This document shows, in pieces, positions 13,254-59,534 of a stretch of DNA of 64,000 bases. Below the pieces are notes generated by a model. That model saw nothing but the letters and a program-made list of their open reading frames with translations, was not told the DNA's origin and made no database searches. The stretch is from Sphingobacterium griseoflavum (lineage in GTDB: Bacteria > Bacteroidota > Bacteroidia > Sphingobacteriales > Sphingobacteriaceae). The translations under genes and the position numbers were made by a program. Every line of letters begins with the position of its first letter. The first letter of the stretch is position 1. The stretch covers positions 62,001 to 126,000 of the forward strand of contig NZ_BNAF01000009.1 of NCBI RefSeq assembly GCF_014653155.1, in the 5' to 3' direction.

Positions 13254-14452
13254 TGGTTCATTCTGGCATTGCAGTCACCGGCATGGGAATTATTTCCGCT
13301 ATAGGAAGTACGAATGAGGAGAGTTTTCAGGCACTATTAAACGGGAAACACGGTATTTCGCGTGTGCAGAATTTTGATACGAAACATAAAGACCATATCC
13401 TGGTGGGAGAAATCAAATACTCCAACAGGCAGTTGGCTGCATTACTGGGCATTACGGAACCCCATAATTTTACACGGACGGCCCTTTTAGGCGCTCTTGC
13501 CGCGAAGGCCGCAATAGCTGATGCCGGAATAAGCGATGTCAACGCGCAACGAACAGGATTGATATCCTCTACCAGTGTGGGCGGGATGGATTACACCGAA
13601 CGCTATTTTTACGAATACCTCACTAATCCAAGTTTGCACCCGTACATTAGTACGCACGATGCGGGAGATTCATCGCATAAGATCGCGGAGTGCCTCGGAC
13701 TGGAAGGAATCGTCACAACGATCAGTACGGCATGTTCCTCTGCCGCAAACGCGATTATGATGGGAGCGCGGCTAATCAAATCTGGTCGATTGGATCGAGT
13801 GATCGTGGGCGGTACAGACGCCTTGAGCAAGTTTACCATCAATGGCTTCAAGACACTAATGATATTGACCGATGATTATTGCAGACCATTTGATAACGAA
13901 CGCTGTGGGTTAAATTTGGGAGAAGCTGCGGCCTATTTGGTTTTAGAGTCTGCCATGTCGCTGAAAAAAGATGGAAAAAAACCCTTGGCTTTTCTGCGGG
14001 GCTACGGCAATGCAAACGACGCCTTCCACCAAACGGCATCTTCTGAAAATGGTGAGGGCGCATTTTTAGCCATGAAAAAGGCATTCCAAGCTGCTGATCT
14101 TGATCCTGCGGCCATAGACTACGTGAATGCACATGGTACGGCCACGCCGAATAACGATCTTTCGGAGGGTCGAGCCTTGACGCGCATTTTCGGGGATCAT
14201 GTGCCGGTGTTTAGCTCTACCAAGCCCTTTACCGGCCATACGCTTGCAGCGGCGGCCGCTATTGAAGCTGTTTTCAGCATTTTGGCCCTCCAACAAGGTG
14301 TTGTATTCCCAAATCTTCATTTTCAACACAAGATGGCAGAGCTTGATCTTATCCCACAGACCGAAACCTTACATAGACCCTTGTCAAACGTTTTGTCAAA
14401 TTCGTTTGGCTTTGGCGGAAACTGTTCGACCCTTATATTTTCGAAAGCATGA
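13253..14452 (+). CDS. Beta-ketoacyl-ACP synthase (polyene KS)
   Basis: A 399-residue FabF-like enzyme with Cys161 (TACSSAA), His294 (NAHGTAT) and His329 (FTGHTLA). It is followed, with a 4-nt overlap, by a catalytically dead KS-like protein. That is the arrangement of KS and chain-length-factor genes in aryl polyene (ApeO/ApeC-like) and other type II PKS systems. I infer that it extends the 4-coumaroyl starter by malonyl units on the upstream ACP. Confidence 0.87.
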   Translation: MVHSGIAVTGMGIISAIGSTNEESFQALLNGKHGISRVQNFDTKHKDHILVGEIKYSNRQLAALLGITEPHNFTRTALLGALAAKAAIADAGISDVNAQRTGLISSTSVGGMDYTERYFYEYLTNPSLHPYISTHDAGDSSHKIAECLGLEGIVTTISTACSSAANAIMMGARLIKSGRLDRVIVGGTDALSKFTINGFKTLMILTDDYCRPFDNERCGLNLGEAAAYLVLESAMSLKKDGKKPLAFLRGYGNANDAFHQTASSENGEGAFLAMKKAFQAADLDPAAIDYVNAHGTATPNNDLSEGRALTRIFGDHVPVFSSTKPFTGHTLAAAAAIEAVFSILALQQGVVFPNLHFQHKMAELDLIPQTETLHRPLSNVLSNSFGFGGNCSTLIFSKA

Positions 14453-19558: not shown

Positions 19559-22500
19559 TGGAGACTTTCTTCCACCATACCTACTTATGGGTGCAGCGGA
19601 ACAAACTGCTATCCTGTGCTATTGCACTAGTTTTCCTGACGAGCTGTATTTATCTATCGGCAAAAATTCGCTTCGAAGAAGATATCACGCAGATTATTCC
19701 AAAAAGCGACAACGCAGATGAAATGGCGCGTGCCCTTAAGCAGATGAACTTCGCAGACAAAATCACCGTGCTATTTGACAGAGCCGACACGGTGCCGCCT
19801 GCAAGGCTTACCGCGATGGCAACGTCCTTTATGGATTCTCTAGCTAGAGACACGGTTTTTGTCAAAGGGATCTCTGGGCAGTTTGACACCGAGGATTTGC
19901 AGGAAAGCTACGACTTTGTATATCGGCATTTACCGCTTTTCCTTGATACGGCTACGTATGCTCAGGTGGAGAGAAGATTATCCCCGGACTCTATTCGCAT
20001 GCGCGTGGCGCAGAATTATCGCGCATTGGTAGCGCCAACTGGCTTCTTCACTAGCCGATTGATGCAAAAAGATCCTTTGGGTTTGGGTTTTTTAGGATTG
20101 GAAAAAGTAAGGCAACAAGGGGTCGGGGATGCTTTTATATTGATGGATGGTTTTGTCGCTAGCCGCGATAGCAGTAAGATACTATTGTTTATTGATCCGA
20201 TCTTTCAAGGGGCAGATACAGAGCATAATACGCAGTTTGTAGGACATCTAGAGACCATTCGGCAGCAAATGGAAAAACATTTTCTCGGACAGTCCATATC
20301 CTATTATGGCTCCACTTTCATTGCGGTGGCCAATGCCAAGCAGATAAAGCGGGATATCTCAACCACGGTACTCATTTCGATGTCTATCCTGATGGTCTTG
20401 TTGGTGCTTTTTTACAAACGGCTATACATTCCTGTATTAGTGTTTATCCCGACAGTCTTCGCGGTGGCTTTCGCCTTGGCTTGCCTTTATTTATACAAGC
20501 CTGTTATTTCTGCTATATCGTTAAGTATTGCGGCCGTACTACTGGGCATCACGATAGACTATACCTTGCATGTGTTGACCCATTTCAAGACATCAGGAGA
20601 TATTCGGACGTTGTATCAGGAGTTGACTCGTCCGCTATTGATGAGCGGTGCTACCAGCGCAGTTGCTTTCTTGTGCCTGTTGTTTGTGCATTCTTCAGCA
20701 CTTATCGATTTGGGTATCTTCGCCTCCATCAGTATATTTTCTTCTTCGATTTTCACCTTGCTGCTGATTCCGCACCTATACCGTCCTAAGCGAGAAATAC
20801 GCTATAATTCGATTATTGAAAAAGTTTCAGGATTTTCTTTCGAACGTAACAAACCGCTAATTGCATTATGCTTTCTGTTACTGCTCATCAGCTGTTTTAC
20901 AAGCGGCAAAGTAGGTTATAATAATGATCTAGCCGCACTGAATTTTATCCCTAAAGAGCTGCGGAAGGTGGAGTCGAAACTAGACTCCTTGCTGCGTATG
21001 TCTTCCAAGTCACTGTATTTGGTATCAACTGGCCGTAGCTTTAATGAAGCGGCAAAGAAAACCGACCAATTGTTCGCTTCTTTACAGCGTGCGAAAGCAG
21101 CAGGAAAGATAGTCGATTATAGTGGCCTCACGACGTTTCCATTGTCCATCGAGTCACAACAGATCTATCTGCAGCGGTGGGAATCTTTTTGGAATGCAGA
21201 GCGAAGGGACCGTGTGCGTTCACAACTCATACGGGAAGGCGAAAAATTTGGCTTTTCAGCGACTACACACGGCGAATTTTACAGCCTTATAGCCCAAAAG
21301 CAGGCGCCTATGGGTGTTGGTGAAATGATTGGTTCAAAACTTATGCCTGCACAGGATTTTGTTGCATCGCAAAACGGCTTTTTTACGATTTCTACTTTAG
21401 TAAAAGTATCACCGGAAAAGCGTAGTCAATTTTTGCAGGATATCAACAGAACAGCCGATGTCTTAGTGATCGATAGACAGCATTTAAATGAACATTTCCT
21501 CGGCCAGCTCCGTGATGATTTCAATAGGTTAATCGGTTATTCCTTCTTTGCCGTATTGCTTATCCTTTGGGTGTTCTTCCGGCGTCTAGAATTGGTTTTG
21601 CTTAGTGCTATTCCCATTGCCCTCACGGGGCTGGTAACGACAGGACTAATGGGATTGTTTGGCTTAGAGTTCAATATTTTCAGCGCGATAGTCTGTACGT
21701 TGGTTTTCGGTCATGGTGTAGACTTTAGCATTTTTATGACTGCTGCGTTGCAGAAGCAGTACAGTACGGGTAGGGATGAGCTTCAGACCTATAGAACTTC
21801 GATTCTATTGGCGGTGTTGACCACCGTTTTAGCTATCGGCGCACTTGTCTTTGCCAAACATCCAGCGTTGCTGTCCATTGCATCGGTGTCCCTTATCGGT
21901 GTATTTGCTGCAGTGATTATAACCTTCGTATTTTATCCAATTCTTTTCCGCTTTTTTATATCCAATAGGGCAAAACGCGGAAAGTCGCCATTCACGGTCG
22001 GCATAGCATTTTTCTCTATCCTCTTTTTTCTCTACTATGGAATAGGCACGGTATTGCTATCCTTCCTGTGTCGGACTTTGCTGATGGTTTTGCCAATGAA
22101 GCGTGATAGAAAGGATCGTATTTTTAGGCGTATGATGGCGCTTTTCATGAAATCAGTATTGTACATGGATCCGCGGACTACGCATAGAACATGGAATATC
22201 CATGGTGAAAAGTTTGATCAACCGGCAGTTGTCATTGCCAACCACAGCTCTTTTTTGGATACGCTTTCCTTGGGTATGCTGGTGCCAAAAGGGATATTCC
22301 TGGTGAATGACTGGGTATGGAATTCGCCGATTTTCGGTCGTGCAGTGAAAGCTTTAGGCTTCTATCCGGTAAGTAGTGGACTGGACAATGGGCTCGAGTT
22401 TTTACGCGATAAGGTGAAAAAAGGATACTCGTTAATCGTTTTTCCGGAGGGGACACGCTCTCCTGATAACGTCATTAAGCGTTTTCATAAAGGCGCATTC

Positions 22501-53652: not shown

Positions 53653-56079
53653 ATGAATAGAAGTATTAAAAAAGTAGCTGTTCTGGGTTCCGGGGTGATG
53701 GGCTCACGGATAGCTTGTCACTTTGCCAATATTGGTGTAGATGTTTTGCTGTTGGATATTGTCCCACGTGAGCTGCTTCCGGCCGAGGAGGCAAAAGGAT
53801 TAACATTGCAAAGCGACGTTGTCAAAAACCGTATTGTGAATACATCGCTGGAGACAGCTTTAAAAACAAACCCTTCTCCTATCTATAGCAAAAGTTATGT
53901 ATCCCGTATTGCCACGGGTAATTTTGACGATAACATGAAAGATATTGGGGATTGCGACTGGGTGATCGAGGTTGTAGTCGAGCGATTAGATATCAAAAAG
54001 ACTGTTTTCGATCAAGTTGAAAAACATCGTCGAGCGGGCACGTTGATTACTTCGAATACTTCGGGTATCCCGATCCACTTGATGGCAGAAGGGCGTAGCG
54101 CCGACTTCAAAGAACATTTCTGTGGAACGCATTTTTTCAATCCTCCACGCTATTTAGAGCTCTTCGAACTTATTCCCACCGCTGATACGCTGGTCGAAGT
54201 GGTTGATTTCCTAACGTATTTTGGTGACAAGATGCTGGGAAAAACGGTTGTCCTTTGTAAAGATACGCCGGCTTTTATCGGCAATCGCATTGGTGTTTAC
54301 TCCATGCTAGCATTGACACACTTGGTAGAAAAGTTGGGCCTTACGGTCGAAGAAGTTGACAAGTACACAGGTCCTGCTATGGGGCACCCCAAATCAGCGA
54401 CCTTTCGCACAGCGGATGTTGTTGGTCTTGATACCTTGGTCAATGTCGCGAATGGTTTGGATCAAAACGCTCCGGATGACGAAGCCAAGGGCGTTTTCCA
54501 ACTGCCGGACTACATCAGCAAGATGGTAGAAAACAAGTGGCTTGGCGAAAAATCGAAGCAAGGGTTTTATAAGAAAGAGAAAGATGATCAGGGTAATTCC
54601 GTTATCCTATCGCTGGATCTCCAGTCCATGACCTACAAGCCACAGGAAAAGGTAAAGTCCAGTACCTTGGAAGCCACGAAGCCTGTGGAGGATATTCGCA
54701 AGCGCATGAAAGTTTATGAGCAAGGAACGGATAAGGCTGCAACCCTCTTTCGAGCCATGCATTATCCTTTGTTTGAGTATGTCTCGCATCGGGTTCCCGA
54801 AATAACCGACGATTTCTATAGGATCGATGATGCCATGCGCGCAGGCTTCGGTTGGGAGCTGGGGCCCTTTGAAGTGTGGGATGCTTTAGGCGTTCGGGAG
54901 ACGATCGACAAAATTAAGAATGAGGAGAAGCGCTTGCCTGGACAACGTGGTGAGGTTGCTGTTTGGGTGCAGGAGATGCTGGACGCCGGTTTTGAATCTT
55001 TTTACAGTATCGTTGATGGGGTAAAGAATTTTTACGATAGTACATCTAAGCAATATAAACCTATTCCAGGCGCGGCCGATTTAATTGTACTAGATCATCT
55101 TGCAGATAGTAAAACGGTATGGAAAAATTCCGGTGTGACCATTACGGATCTCGGTGATGGGGTGATCAACTGCGCTTTTCATACGAAGATGAACACAATA
55201 GGCGGGGAGGTCATTCAAGGGATTAACAAGGCCTTGGATTTGGCGGAGCAAGAATATCGCGGTCTTGTTATCACAAATGACGGCAAAAATTTCTCGGCAG
55301 GAGCCAATATCGGTATGATTTTCATGATGGCGGTGGAGCAGGATTATGAGGAATTGGACATGGCGGTTAGCATGTTCCAAAATACCGCGATGCGCATCCG
55401 TTATTCATCGATTCCGGTTGTGGTAGCGCCGTTCCAATTGACGCTCGGGGGTGGTTGCGAGTTTTCGATGCATGCGGATTTTGTGCAACTACATGCGGAG
55501 ACTTACATGGGCCTAGTAGAGTTTGGCGTCGGCGTTATCCCAGGTGGTGGTGGGTCGAAGGAATTCGCACTACGTGCGTCTGATGAATATAAGCCAGATC
55601 AGATTGTACAGAACACACTGAAGGATCGGTTTTTGACAATTGGTCAGGCCAAAGTGTCTACATCCGCTGTCGAGGCTGCCGAACTAGGGTATCTACAGCC
55701 GGGTAAGTACGCGATAACCATGAATAGAAAGCGCTTACTGGCTGATGCAAAAGCGAAGGTGTTGGAGTTAGCGAACGCCGGTTATGTACAGCCTGCTCCG
55801 AGAAAAGATATCAAGGTGCTTGGCAACCAAGGCTTAGGGATCGTATACGTTGGGGCATCATCGATGCGTGCCGGAAACTACATCTCCGATCATGATAAGA
55901 AGATATCTGAAAAATTAGGATGGGTGATGTGTGGCGGCAATTTGTCCGCACCGACCGAAGTATCGGAGCAATATTTACTGGATCTGGAACGGAAAGCATT
56001 CCTGGAGCTGTGCGGCGAGCGCAAGACACTCGAGCGGATACAGCATATGTTAACAAAAGGAAAGGCTTTGAGAAATTAA
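53653..56079 (+). CDS. fadN: 3-hydroxyacyl-CoA dehydrogenase / enoyl-CoA hydratase (FadN type)
   Basis: An 808-residue bifunctional enzyme with the dehydrogenase first: Rossmann motif GSGVMGSRIA near residues 12-21 and GTHFFNPPRY near 156-165. The hydratase/crotonase domain follows (about 500-700: SAGANIGM, then LGGGCEFSMHAD and GVIPGGGGS). This order and length match FadN of Bacillus rather than proteobacterial FadB/FadJ. The later genes are FadA- and FadE-like, the same order as fadNAE. Confidence 0.9.
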   Translation: MNRSIKKVAVLGSGVMGSRIACHFANIGVDVLLLDIVPRELLPAEEAKGLTLQSDVVKNRIVNTSLETALKTNPSPIYSKSYVSRIATGNFDDNMKDIGDCDWVIEVVVERLDIKKTVFDQVEKHRRAGTLITSNTSGIPIHLMAEGRSADFKEHFCGTHFFNPPRYLELFELIPTADTLVEVVDFLTYFGDKMLGKTVVLCKDTPAFIGNRIGVYSMLALTHLVEKLGLTVEEVDKYTGPAMGHPKSATFRTADVVGLDTLVNVANGLDQNAPDDEAKGVFQLPDYISKMVENKWLGEKSKQGFYKKEKDDQGNSVILSLDLQSMTYKPQEKVKSSTLEATKPVEDIRKRMKVYEQGTDKAATLFRAMHYPLFEYVSHRVPEITDDFYRIDDAMRAGFGWELGPFEVWDALGVRETIDKIKNEEKRLPGQRGEVAVWVQEMLDAGFESFYSIVDGVKNFYDSTSKQYKPIPGAADLIVLDHLADSKTVWKNSGVTITDLGDGVINCAFHTKMNTIGGEVIQGINKALDLAEQEYRGLVITNDGKNFSAGANIGMIFMMAVEQDYEELDMAVSMFQNTAMRIRYSSIPVVVAPFQLTLGGGCEFSMHADFVQLHAETYMGLVEFGVGVIPGGGGSKEFALRASDEYKPDQIVQNTLKDRFLTIGQAKVSTSAVEAAELGYLQPGKYAITMNRKRLLADAKAKVLELANAGYVQPAPRKDIKVLGNQGLGIVYVGASSMRAGNYISDHDKKISEKLGWVMCGGNLSAPTEVSEQYLLDLERKAFLELCGERKTLERIQHMLTKGKALRN

Positions 56080-56084
56080 TCTAT

Positions 56085-56117
56085 GTATTGCGTATAGCGT
56101 AATGAGTATTGAGATAT
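56085..56117 (+). repeat. Left arm of 33-nt inverted heptad repeat around S23-type gene
   Basis: Four units of a GTATTGN-type heptamer (GTATTGC, GTATAGC, GTAATGA, GTATTGA) plus GATAT. It begins 6 nt after the fadN stop and runs into the ATG of the four-helix-bundle gene. It matches the complement of 56483-56515 at 27 of 33 positions. Confidence 0.8.
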
Positions 56118-56481
56118 GCATAAGGTTCAAGATTTGAGAGTTTGGCAAAATGCGATGCAGCTCGCTGTTGAGGTTTACAAATGTACCGAACAACTTCCTC
56201 AAGAGGAGAGATTTGGACTCCTTTCGCAGGTTAGAAGAAGCGCTGTTTCCATCTGCTCAAATATTGCAGAAGGCGCGGGACGAAATTCTAACGGCGAGTT
56301 TGTTCAATTTTTGGGGATGGCAAATGGCTCGGCATATGAGCTGCAAACCCAAATTGAATTGCTAAAGCGACTGGAATATCTTGATGAGGCTACAAAATTA
56401 AAGTTAGTTGATAATATAGACGAAATACAAAAAATGCTCTTCAAGCTAATGAAGGCATTAAAAAACAAAAATGAGGTTTAG
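56116..56481 (+). CDS. Four-helix-bundle protein (S23 / 23S rRNA intervening-sequence protein family)
   Basis: A 121-residue helical protein with the family marks DLRVWQNAM near the N-terminus, ERFGLLSQVRRSAVSICSNI and AEGAGRNS (about residues 31-58), and GSAYELQTQ. The family is best known from intervening sequences within 23S rRNA genes and from the Avd proteins of diversity-generating retroelements; its general role is unclear. Here it interrupts a fatty-acid operon between fadN and fadA and is bracketed exactly by inverted heptad repeats, which suggests a mobile or inserted cassette. Confidence 0.9.
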   Translation: MHKVQDLRVWQNAMQLAVEVYKCTEQLPQEERFGLLSQVRRSAVSICSNIAEGAGRNSNGEFVQFLGMANGSAYELQTQIELLKRLEYLDEATKLKLVDNIDEIQKMLFKLMKALKNKNEV

Positions 56482-56482
56482 C

Positions 56483-56515
56483 AAATCGCAATACGCATTA
56501 CCCAATACACAATAC
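56483..56515 (-). repeat. Right arm of 33-nt inverted heptad repeat
   Basis: Read on the minus strand it is GTATTGT, GTATTGG, GTAATGC, GTATTGC plus GATTT. It begins 2 nt after the S23-type stop and ends 14 nt before fadA. Both arms share the odd third unit GTAATG. Confidence 0.8.
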
Positions 56516-56529
56516 CAAAAAATAAAAAA

Positions 56530-57702
56530 ATGGAAGCATACATTATAGCAGGATATCGGACCGCAGTGGGCAAGGCCCCGCGAGGGGTTTTTCGTTTTAT
56601 GCGTGCCGACGATTTGGCCGCCGATGTGATCAAGCACATGGTTTCTACCATCCCAAAACTGGATGTCGAACAGATCGATGATGTCATTGTAGGAAACGCC
56701 ATGCCCGAGGCTGAACAAGGTTTAAACGTGGGGAGGTTGATATCCCTGATGGGATTGCAAACCGACAAAGTTCCGGGCGTGACGGTGAACAGGTATTGCG
56801 CTTCTGGGCTGGAAACAATTGCCACGGCTGTTGCCAAAATAAAGTCGGGGATGGCTGATTGCATTATTGCCGGCGGCGTGGAGGTTATGTCGGGAATGCC
56901 TTTCGGCGGATGGAAGATCGTGCCAAACCCTGTGGTGGCTAGGGAGAATCCGGATTGGTATTGGGGTATGGGATTAACCGCGGAGGCTGTAGCCAAGGAA
57001 TTTAATGTGTCGCGTGAAGATCAGGACGCTTTTGCGTTAAGATCACATCAAAAAGCCGTAGCCGCGCAACAGCAAGGCTATTTGCAGGCGGGGATTGTAC
57101 CGATAAAGGTTCAGGAAACGTACATAAAGGATAATAAGATCGCTACGCGGGAGTATACCGTGGACAAAGATGAAGGCCCTAGATCGGATTCTTCGGCAGA
57201 GGCTTTGGCAAAGCTACGTCCTGTGTTCGCGGCCGACGGCTGTGTAACTGCGGGCAACTCCTCGCAGACGTCCGATGGCGCCGCTTTCGTATTGGTTGTA
57301 TCCGAGAAGATGCTGAAAGAATTACAGGTTGAACCAATAGCACGCTTGGTAAGTTATGCGGCCGCAGGCGTTCCTCCGCGTATCATGGGGATCGGTCCGG
57401 TGGCGGCCATTCCGAAAGCTCTTGCAATGGCGAATTTGGGAAAGGAAGATATCGACCTTATTGAGCTTAACGAAGCTTTTGCTTCGCAATCGTTGGCTGT
57501 GATCCGTGAATTGGGACTCGACGAATCGAGAGTCAATATCAATGGCGGAGCAATTGCGCTGGGACATCCGCTGGGGTGCACAGGTGCAAAGTTGACGGTG
57601 CAGCTACTGAACGATCTAAAGAGAAGAAACGAGCGCTACGGTATGGTGACCATGTGTGTCGGAACAGGACAAGGGGCTGCCGGTATTTTTGAGATGTTGT
57701 AG
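56530..57702 (+). CDS. fadA: Acetyl-CoA C-acyltransferase (thiolase)
   Basis: A 390-residue thiolase with nucleophile Cys90 (RYCASG), His346 (ALGHPLG) and Cys376 (MCVGTG). It cleaves 3-ketoacyl-CoA in beta-oxidation. It lies 450 nt after fadN because of the inserted four-helix-bundle cassette, and 53 nt before fadE. Confidence 0.92.
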   Translation: MEAYIIAGYRTAVGKAPRGVFRFMRADDLAADVIKHMVSTIPKLDVEQIDDVIVGNAMPEAEQGLNVGRLISLMGLQTDKVPGVTVNRYCASGLETIATAVAKIKSGMADCIIAGGVEVMSGMPFGGWKIVPNPVVARENPDWYWGMGLTAEAVAKEFNVSREDQDAFALRSHQKAVAAQQQGYLQAGIVPIKVQETYIKDNKIATREYTVDKDEGPRSDSSAEALAKLRPVFAADGCVTAGNSSQTSDGAAFVLVVSEKMLKELQVEPIARLVSYAAAGVPPRIMGIGPVAAIPKALAMANLGKEDIDLIELNEAFASQSLAVIRELGLDESRVNINGGAIALGHPLGCTGAKLTVQLLNDLKRRNERYGMVTMCVGTGQGAAGIFEML

Positions 57703-57755
57703 CGTCAATATCTGTGTAAGCAACATAAGAATGAAAATCAGCTAAAAAACTAAAT

Positions 57756-59534
57756 ATGAGTAATGCAATGAAAGGGGGCGAATTTGTTATTCGCGAAACG
57801 CCGTATACAGACGTATTCATCCCTGAGGAGTTTGATGAAGAGGCGAAGATGATTCGGCAGACCTGTCTAGACTTTCTTGATAGCGAGGTGCTGAACAAAC
57901 TGGAGCGCATTGATGCCCAAGAAGAAGGGCTGATGCAGTCGCTCTTGGATAAGGCTGGCGAGTTGGGTATGCTGGGCGTGTCTATCCCCGAAGAATATGG
58001 TGGATTTGGAAAAAACTTTAACACATCCATGCTCGTGGCCGATGCGGTGGGCGGCGGCTATTCTTTTGCCGTAGCGCTGTCGGCACATACGGGCATTGGC
58101 ACGCTGCCCATATTGTATTATGGCAATGATGCCCAAAAGCAAAAATATATTCCAAAGCTGACCACTGGCGAGTGGAAAGCCGCCTACTGTTTGACGGAGC
58201 CTAACGCCGGGTCGGACGCCAATTCGGGACGCACATCAGCCAAATTAAATCCAGAGAAAACACACTATGTGATCAATGGGCAGAAAATGTGGATCACCAA
58301 CGGTGGTTTTGCCGATGTCTTCATTGTCTTTGCTAAAATCGATGACGATAAAAATTTAAGTGCGTTTATTGTAGAAAAGGAGTTTGGTGGCATCAGCATG
58401 AATCCTGAAGAGCATAAGTTGGGTATCAAGGGCTCGTCCACGCGGCAAGTGTTTTTCAACGACTGTCCTGTGCCCGTGGAAAACTTATTGTCCGAGCGCG
58501 AGAATGGATTTAAGATTGCGGTTAATATCTTAAATATCGGCCGGATTAAGCTGGGCGCTGCGACCATCGGATCGTCCAGATCTGTCATTACACAAGCGGT
58601 ACGTTACGCTAATGAGCGGGTGCAGTTTAAGTTGCCGATATCCAAGTTTGGAGCCATACGTTATAAACTAGCGGAGATGGCGACTCGTCTTTATGCGACC
58701 GAGGCCGCGGCTTATCGTGCCGGTCAAAATATTGATGATGCATATGACGCATTGGTGGCTGGGGGTATGGAGGAGTCGCAGGCGAAACTGAAGTCTGTGG
58801 AGCAGTTTGCCATTGAGTGTGCCATCATTAAGGTTTGGTGTTCGGAGATGTTGGATTATGTAGTGGACGAAGGTGTGCAGATTTATGGAGGAATGGGCTA
58901 TTCTGCAGAAGCGCCCATGGAGCGTGCATACCGTGATTCACGCATCAACCGTATCTTTGAAGGAACGAATGAAGTAAATCGTTTGCTGATCGTGGACATG
59001 CTGCTAAAGCGTGCAATGAAGGGCGAAATAGACCTGATGGGGCCGGCTACAGCTATCGCTAACGAATTGCTGTCTATTCCTGAATTTGGTGGGGAGGACA
59101 GGGCGCCTTTTGCCATGGAGAAAAAAGTAATCGCTAATCTGAAGAAAGCGGGGCTACTTATTGCCGGCGCAGCTGTGCAGAAACTGATGATGTCATTGGC
59201 CAAAGAGGAGGAAATCCTTATGAATATTGCGGATATCATCGGATATGTCTACGTTGCCGAGTCTGTGCTCTTGCGGGCAGAGAAGCTTTACCATACCCAA
59301 GGGGAAGAGGCATCGGCCCTGCCGACAGATATCGCGCGAGTCTATCTCTATTCAGCCCTGGATAAAGTACATGTCGCAGGTAAAGAGGCGTTGTATTCTT
59401 TCGGGGAAGGAGATGAGCTGAAAATGATGTTGGTGGGACTGCGGCGTTTCACCAAGTCCGAGCCTTTTAATAGCAAAGATGCGCGTCAGCGCATTGCTAA
59501 AAAACTGATCGACGAGAATCGTTACGCTTTTTAA
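57756..59534 (+). CDS. fadE: Acyl-CoA dehydrogenase (FadE type, long form)
   Basis: A 592-residue acyl-CoA dehydrogenase. The usual ~380-residue core (YCLTEPNAGSD, then WITNGG and the IFEGTNEVNR motif near 405) has a C-terminal extension of about 170 helical residues. That length matches Bacillus FadE rather than short-chain enzymes. It performs the first beta-oxidation step with FAD. It closes the operon, followed by a terminator. Confidence 0.92.
   Translation: MSNAMKGGEFVIRETPYTDVFIPEEFDEEAKMIRQTCLDFLDSEVLNKLERIDAQEEGLMQSLLDKAGELGMLGVSIPEEYGGFGKNFNTSMLVADAVGGGYSFAVALSAHTGIGTLPILYYGNDAQKQKYIPKLTTGEWKAAYCLTEPNAGSDANSGRTSAKLNPEKTHYVINGQKMWITNGGFADVFIVFAKIDDDKNLSAFIVEKEFGGISMNPEEHKLGIKGSSTRQVFFNDCPVPVENLLSERENGFKIAVNILNIGRIKLGAATIGSSRSVITQAVRYANERVQFKLPISKFGAIRYKLAEMATRLYATEAAAYRAGQNIDDAYDALVAGGMEESQAKLKSVEQFAIECAIIKVWCSEMLDYVVDEGVQIYGGMGYSAEAPMERAYRDSRINRIFEGTNEVNRLLIVDMLLKRAMKGEIDLMGPATAIANELLSIPEFGGEDRAPFAMEKKVIANLKKAGLLIAGAAVQKLMMSLAKEEEILMNIADIIGYVYVAESVLLRAEKLYHTQGEEASALPTDIARVYLYSALDKVHVAGKEALYSFGEGDELKMMLVGLRRFTKSEPFNSKDARQRIAKKLIDENRYAF

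Follow-up and report, generated by a model that had tools for sequence, protein, structure and literature searches.

What is a gene known mainly from insertions in rRNA genes doing inside a fatty-acid operon? In the window, the 64,000-nt stretch of Sphingobacterium griseoflavum DNA analysed here, an S23/IVP gene sits between fadN and fadA as an operon cassette bracketed by matching arrays, and related genomes reveal that the cassette is swappable. The function of the S23/IVP protein is given as unknown in the available part of PMC4990558. An initial annotation of the window had proposed that the cassette is an rRNA-type intervening sequence (IVS) living in an mRNA, whose arms could fold into a stem that splits the message or allows excision, and may serve as its ends. 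Here we argue, with a probability of roughly 0.6, that it belongs to a widespread kind of element made of an S23 gene plus its cognate arrays, a partnership resembling that of RAYT and REPIN but built on an unrelated four-helix-bundle protein.

The S23 cassette of the fad operon is bounded by inverted heptamer arms

Two host genes enclose the cassette on the forward strand, an 808-aa upstream ORF (53653-56079) and a 390-aa downstream ORF (56530-57702); their names, fadN-like and fadA-like, are those of the initial annotation and fit the translations. The ORF between them (56116-56481, forward strand, 121 aa) is an S23/IVP four-helix-bundle gene, since in profile searches its product scores 141.6 bits against a cut-off of 33.8 with PF05635 and 135.8 against 24 with TIGR02436. 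Identity with the Avd protein of retroelements was rejected, the window protein being below the cut-offs of both models (bAvd, 26.5 vs 40; DivGenRetAVD, 28.7 vs 80).

The arms proved to be as initially described. The top ungapped inverted match joins 56085-56117 and 56483-56515 with 27 of 33 positions identical and a degenerate GTATTGN heptamer, and Tandem Repeats Finder independently reported period-7 arrays at 56085-56113 and 56487-56515. The left arm (forward strand; GTATTGC, GTATAGC, GTAATGA and GTATTGA) extends into the ATG of the S23 gene, the right arm, which is its inverted complement (reverse strand), begins 2 nt past the stop codon, and the odd unit GTAATG is third from outside in both. 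A general repeat search with default settings did not report the arms, probably because no exact 9-mer is common to the two. A chance palindrome was ruled out with 300 random window places submitted to the same search grid: the mean best inverted match was 16.5, and the only two places reaching 23 or more (23 and 27) both overlap the element. RNA folding predicts that the left arm pairs with the right (z -3.51; none of 100 shuffles did as well). A known RNA family was rejected as well, the sole match to an RNA family at 55000-57800 being mir-250 at chance level (E 0.74).

Arms and gene are exchanged together at the fadN-fadA junction

A fadN match was present in all 30 genomes searched, including that of the window, and we compared the fadN-fadA spacers of 18 genomes of the genus, again with the window genome included. 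Three genomes have an empty spacer of 9-10 nt (G014, G007, G013), three a spacer of 30-33 nt with apparent arm remnants (G010, G005, G016) and two a spacer of 107-112 nt that lacks an intact gene (G001, G011); the remaining ten carry the S23 gene, whole or partial, with truncated copies in G009 and G003. The arm words at this junction vary between GTATTGN, GTATTTA-like and GAGATTT-like, and they correspond to three S23 clades, A, B and C, within which the proteins are 60-94%, 64-99% and 54-94% identical, respectively, and between which identity falls to 41-55%. One further copy, L065, is intermediate between the three clades (50-59% identity).

When the junction was labelled by eye (A-E, scar, none or other), at least 12 changes were required among the labels A-E (28 genomes) when these were mapped on a tree of fadN from 36 genomes. 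The clearest case is that of G059 and G035. Upstream, the last 1,929 nt to the fadN stop are 98.7% identical; downstream, starting about 30 nt before the fadA start, identity is 95.2% across 1,946 nt. Yet the S23 proteins in between are 52% identical, and the arms differ. The arm-gene-arm cassette thus behaves as the unit exchanged at the fadN-fadA junction and the arms as its ends, as had been surmised. The exchange could have come about by ordinary homologous recombination in the genes on either side; no target-site duplication and no excision product were seen in the loci read.

Relatives with the same gene at this place and without arms would have spoken against the initial proposal. Intact relatives have a left arm, often with a different word; the right arm is eroded in some of them (L043, L051, L052 and L059, with inverted scores at background). 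A feature specific to the fad operon was rejected, as arrays are also found at atp, ilv-leu-like, lipB-like, rfbC-like, folA-like and many more junctions, all these names being readings of translations.

Heptamer or octamer arrays accompany S23 genes across bacteria

Three sets of loci were assembled. The genus set, made of PF05635 matches with a locus and 40 fetched regions plus the fadN loci, has 76 rows, two of them from outside the genus (L025, L033), and 72 rows, L025 included, had flanks long enough for the lag analysis. The Bacteroidota set holds 29 new loci and 20 regions, and the named set is the best 80 of at least 583 confirmed candidates, with 76 loci in the lag analysis. Against distal DNA, a control which is mostly coding and less fair than intergenic gaps, lag-7 self-match beside S23 was 0.429 vs 0.249 in the 72 loci (one of them from outside the genus), 0.39 vs 0.27 in the 29 Bacteroidota loci and 0.42 vs 0.26 in the 76 named loci of many phyla taken from the best 80 of at least 583. 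In the 72 loci, lags 14 and 21 were also raised, and lag 8 gave 0.342 vs 0.257 for the same mostly coding distal control. At least one side of 39 of the 76 named loci (same best 80 of at least 583) exceeded the 99% distal threshold at lag 7, as compared with 8 of 76 loci at lag 8 and 0-5 of 76 at lags 3-6, 9-11 and 13.

The sets were then pooled into 200 elements (214 rows minus those with flanks under 120 nt, those with proteins under 100 aa and duplicates), of which 170 are from Bacteroidota, the 15 groups being hand-assigned from record titles. Calling the best period between 5 and 12 on each 100-nt side returned period 7 on 219 of 400 S23-flanking sides vs 5 of 386 distal stretches, period 8 on 56 vs 1, and period 9 on 4 vs 10. 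A period-7 or period-8 array is present on at least one side of 177 elements, and 21 of the 200 have no array of period 5-12. Period 7 alone was found in 130 elements, period 8 alone in 31 and both in 3; therefore, in two-armed elements the period is nearly always equal on both sides. A strict period of 7 is rejected by the 31 octamer-only elements, a minority class (for example L002, L071, L087, L140, L142, L192 and L207) whose period is likewise nearly always alike on both sides, and by one element of period 9 (L048). The larger result is that, across bacteria, heptamer or octamer arrays go with S23 genes.

When the lag-7 cut-off was relaxed to a 60% match over 21 positions, arrays were found on 263 of 400 sides vs 13 of 386 distal stretches, again mostly coding; at least one is present in 153 of the 200 elements and both arms in 110, and 47 have none. 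No lag-7 array passed in the five elements from Nitrospirae, SAR324, Cloacimonadota and Gemmatimonadota; octamers are present in L192 (Nitrospirae), L216 (Cloacimonadota) and L142 (Gemmatimonadota). Arrays are commonest at 4-6 units, with a median of 4.9 by a measure that is blind below about 3 units. One phase carries an invariant AG/CT dinucleotide in 151 of the 263 arrays, 2.0 times the column-shuffled expectation, and invariant GC is also raised (21 vs 9.8). Across these 263 arrays, whose heptamers otherwise differ, the invariant AG mostly has the same orientation relative to the gene (141 AG, 14 CT).

Arms could form a stem in many elements, but not in all

The arms of the 110 two-armed elements are inverted in 93, direct in 14 and ambiguous in 3. 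The initial proposal that they could form a stem holds for the window, where the predicted RNA pairs them; an obligatory RNA stem is contradicted because direct arms cannot form one. Besides, by RNAduplex an element's own arms ranked under the 5th percentile for cross pairs in just 65 of the 200 elements.

These data bear on a rival reading of the locus, in which an rRNA-type IVS has landed in an mRNA, its arms serve solely as a substrate for RNase III and S23 has no other tie to arrays. The preponderance of inverted arms and the pairing in the window RNA are as this reading expects, and in Coxiella RNase III cuts in the stem of an IVS in which tandem GACAGAT heptamers precede S23p (PMC4990558, in its available part). 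Elements with direct arms do not conform to it, nor do dispersed arrays that keep a single orientation at 12 of 20 places (see below), and we regard it as very unlikely.

That the window cassette and the 23S rRNA IVS are the same kind of element is a separate matter, and here the parallels go beyond the Coxiella heptamers. On the Azospirillum lipoferum plasmid AZO_p2, an S23 copy (L141, 1430-1900) lies inside a plasmid-borne 23S rRNA gene recognised by the Rfam LSU model, with inverted CAGAGGA/CGGATGA arms and its ATG within the left arm; this S23 gene is absent from the annotation table. The IVSs of Coxiella and Leptospira (PF05635) share with the window element the protein family, the size of about 430 nt, complementary arms and heptamers before the ORF. 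They differ in that the window element stands between two protein genes of an operon, with no rRNA found at 55000-57800, in that arrays of its type also occur elsewhere without a gene, and in that RNase III cleavage, known for the IVS, would be a prediction for the window element. An rRNA-IVS-type element living in an mRNA, with the arms as its ends, is therefore a proposal that the comparison supports.

Other plasmid copies illustrate the range of arm arrangements. Inverted GGGAGTA arrays bracket the S23 gene of a Nostoc edaphicum plasmid and inverted GGGTGTA arrays that of a Calothrix plasmid; one Calothrix copy, L136, has no array that is clear to the eye; direct AAAAGCT arrays flank a Pseudanabaena plasmid copy, and direct octamers the Oscillatoria and Gemmatirosa plasmid copies. 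In L137 (Pseudanabaena pPg_01), the neighbours of S23 are cas6 and cas4, and highly regular direct arrays of AAAAGCT / AAAAGCC flank the gene on either side. In L135 (Nostoc edaphicum pNe_5) and L136 (Calothrix Cal7716_p5), S23 is antisense to both neighbours and is therefore not translated from the operon message; one of the two copies lies between ribonucleotide reductase beta and alpha genes.

The array word tends to follow the S23 protein

The arms of one element resemble each other more than those of different elements (similarity 0.89 vs 0.65 among the 110 two-armed elements), and for 91 of these 110 the own arm pair lies above the 95th percentile for cross pairs. We then considered pairs of elements at unrelated junctions, defined by the absence of any blastp match at 1e-12 between the ORFs of their 1500-nt flanks, and scored a heptamer as the same when similarity was above 0.85. 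With S23 protein identity of 60% or more, 51% of such pairs (n=70) have the same heptamer, a share which 0 of 2000 permutations reach. The share rises with identity, from 2-4% below 50% to 12% at 50-60%, 48% at 60-70% (n=59) and 73% above 70% (n=11). Across phyla the trend is weaker, with 1.5-2% below 50% identity, 13% at 55-60% (n=39) and 1 of 3 pairs above 60%.

On the S23 tree of 153 elements, 14 heptamer classes require 44 changes vs 74-85 in 200 shuffles, a count that covers 120 of the 153 elements and classes of four or more. The clade, orientation and AG-core tests use lag-7 arrays only, so that octamer elements are scored poorly or omitted in them. Elements L093 and L094 have S23 proteins that are 90% identical at unrelated junctions; the DNA they have in common is 84.8% identical over gene plus right arm, with short arm-to-arm matches in addition, while the flanks are unlike. 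Altogether, arm words vary from element to element, usually agree between the two arms of one, and tend to go with the clade of its S23 protein.

Arrays without a gene are linked to the presence of S23

The window genome has three PF05635 genes. It also has an inverted pair of arrays without a gene between atpD and atpC, with more arrays near leu-like and ilv-like genes (named from translations) and on contig 4. On that contig (L004, 1400-2225), a tandem repeat of about 110-130 bp that contains CCCGGGAC is enclosed by two pairs of arms in which GTGATAN-like and GTATTG/GTAATG words are mixed. In the region harbouring the third S23 gene (L249), AAAAGTA-like arrays are found at other junctions, at 13327-13374 and 19886-19929. 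Sampling 194 gaps of the window genome gave six with an array, the element itself among them, and 43 of 160 other intergenic gaps in S23 loci hold one, a few due to neighbouring second S23 copies; arrays exclusive to S23 are thereby rejected.

Sorted by eye, the atpD-atpC spacers of 30 loci comprise 15 with two inverted arrays and no gene, 1 with mainly one array, 5 with a scar of 21 nt, 7 that are short and lack an array, 1 that is degenerate and 1 truncated by a contig end. Arrays are present there in 16 of 20 S23-bearing vs 0 of 9 S23-lacking genomes (p 7e-5, genome kinship ignored). Among 60 genomes of the genus, PF05635 matches divide 37 S23-bearing from 23 S23-lacking ones. Three heptamer patterns (GTATTGN, GTANTTA and GAGATNT), counted as matches with overlaps and the S23 genes' own arms included, gave 1149 matches in the former vs 44 in the latter, with a maximum of 7 in any S23-lacking genome; more than 10 matches were reached by 19 of 37 vs 0 of 23 genomes (p about 1e-5, genome kinship ignored). 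Similarly, 400 kb from ten S23-bearing genomes contained nine lag-7 arrays, all in three genomes, and 400 kb from ten S23-lacking genomes contained none. At the genome level, the presence of S23 and that of arrays are thus linked.

Strict cognacy between word and clade fails at this level for two of the words. Genome-wide amplification agrees with the fad-site clade for GAGATNT (p 0.002), but not for GTATTGN (p 0.45) or GTANTTA (p 0.43). GAGATNT / GAGATNTGAGATNTGAG has 122-138 matches in G041, G050 and G065 only, genomes whose one S23 gene belongs to clade C, and at most 9 in the other 57 genomes of the genus. Twenty amplified places picked from G050 and G065 have arrays in one orientation only (12) or in both (8), and S23 is present at none. 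One 4.3-Mb genome, G031, has 13 S23 matches with many different array words.

Could the arrays be independent intergenic repeats, generated by slippage or other means, with S23 as a tolerated passenger? Their presence in over a quarter of the other gaps and the failure of two of three words would agree with this. So would the over-representation of heptamers among simple repeats of many bacterial genomes, whose cause is unsettled (PMC4692102, PMC4679880) and to which the available part of PMC4692102 links no gene. An independent origin does not, however, predict that the arm word tracks the S23 clade across unrelated junctions, or that congeners lacking S23 are array-poor in the 400-kb sample, in pattern matches and at the atp site alike. 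We therefore judge it quite unlikely. A common unrelated intergenic repeat, which would have told against the initial proposal, is borne out by half: the heptamers are common between genes, yet tied to S23 by clade and by genome.

S23 is under purifying selection and may bind its arrays

The S23 protein is maintained by purifying selection, with dN/dS of 0.02-0.12 in 11 of 12 measurable pairs and 0.34 in one little-diverged pair (three further pairs had no dS). The profile of alignment A3, comprising the window protein and seven relatives, matches the structures 2gsc (E 2.6e-39) and 2rld (E 3.6e-16), which have five chains each. We know of no nuclease activity of S23 proteins. A title cited in PMC3936711, itself available in part, describes Xcc0516 as five four-helix bundles, and Avd, a distant S23 relative, serves retroelements according to the accessible text of PMC10053308. 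Because of the selection, the five-chain structures and the retroelement service of Avd, binding of the arrays by an S23 pentamer, as RNA or single-stranded DNA, appears to be the likeliest role. Movement of arrays, as by RAYT, is preferred over regulation of operons, as by TRAP, or both may apply.

TRAP is a ring-shaped RNA-binding protein, and S23 could similarly be a post-transcriptional regulator that serves its host, a ring reading the units of operon mRNAs, with its own arms for autoregulation and the dispersed arrays as its regulon. Several observations fit: in 159 of 200 elements S23 points the same way as both neighbours (longest ORF of at least 100 aa within 350 nt), array length peaks at 4-6 units where solved homologues have five chains, the AG core recurs in otherwise different heptamers, selection is strong, and the window genome has arrays at atp, ilv-like and leu-like junctions. 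A host regulator would, however, hardly be absent from 23 of 60 genomes of the genus, in which arrays are scarce; its arms are swapped at a fixed junction, which is unusual for a regulon, and two cyanobacterial copies are antisense to both neighbours and one copy lies in rRNA. Such a regulator is, in our view, unlikely.

A working model and its relation to known repeat systems

The reading we favour, S23 genes with cognate arrays as mobile or persistent partners, is as follows. In an element, arrays of about 3-6 degenerate heptamers (octamers in a minority), mostly inverted to each other, enclose an S23 gene. Arm, gene and arm are inherited, lost and exchanged together at places that tolerate them in transcription, chiefly where co-directional genes meet and, for some bacteria, within rRNA genes. 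Arrays of this type that lack a gene are dispersed in S23-bearing genomes, as REPINs are with RAYT genes. We infer that an S23 pentamer binds the arrays as RNA or single-stranded DNA, each protomer taking one unit and AG being a common core, and that this binding may promote copying or persistence of the arrays. Inverted arms would give the transcript a stem, perhaps trimmed by RNase III, which could make insertion into operons and rRNA tolerable.

Like RAYT genes, S23 genes are flanked by repeats of their own class; the dispersed gene-less inverted doublets and singlets of RAYT systems (PMC3116915, in its available part) may have their counterpart in the gene-less arrays. These accompany the presence of S23, but agree with the fad-site clade for a single word out of three. 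In contrast to a RAYT, S23 is a four-helix bundle (PF05635) and not a tyrosine transposase, its repeat is a tandem degenerate heptamer or octamer with arms that are sometimes direct, and no transposition intermediate was seen. The Avd protein of diversity-generating retroelements is alike as a distant homologue, a four-helix bundle and a retroelement accessory protein (PMC10053308, as far as accessible), and unlike in that the window protein is under the Avd model cut-offs.

Cyanobacterial heptamer repeats are known as STRR. One Nostoc S23 gene, as described above, is bracketed by GGGAGTA arrays. The heptamers of Nostoc and Xanthomonas and the TAACTGA repeat of Beggiatoaceae are likewise intergenic and tandem, also between operon genes (PMC4692102, PMC4679880, both in their available parts), but have no S23 partner in these accounts, "S23" and "four-helix" having 0 occurrences in the main texts. 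Our search, with most subscription journals beyond its reach, found no literature linking S23 to heptamers outside rRNA.

Tentatively, and at somewhat less than even odds, S23 might represent a new kind of repeat-partner system throughout bacteria, in which every S23 clade would read an AG-cored heptamer or octamer of its own, gene and repeat together would generate and maintain many of the heptamers over-represented in bacteria, cyanobacterial ones included, and rRNA intervening sequences would be the copies that landed in rRNA. The gap in S23 function and the abundance of heptamers are here joined by a testable rule, namely that the array word goes with the S23 clade. If it is true, two loose ends would become one system, and an origin of the rRNA intervening sequences would be suggested.
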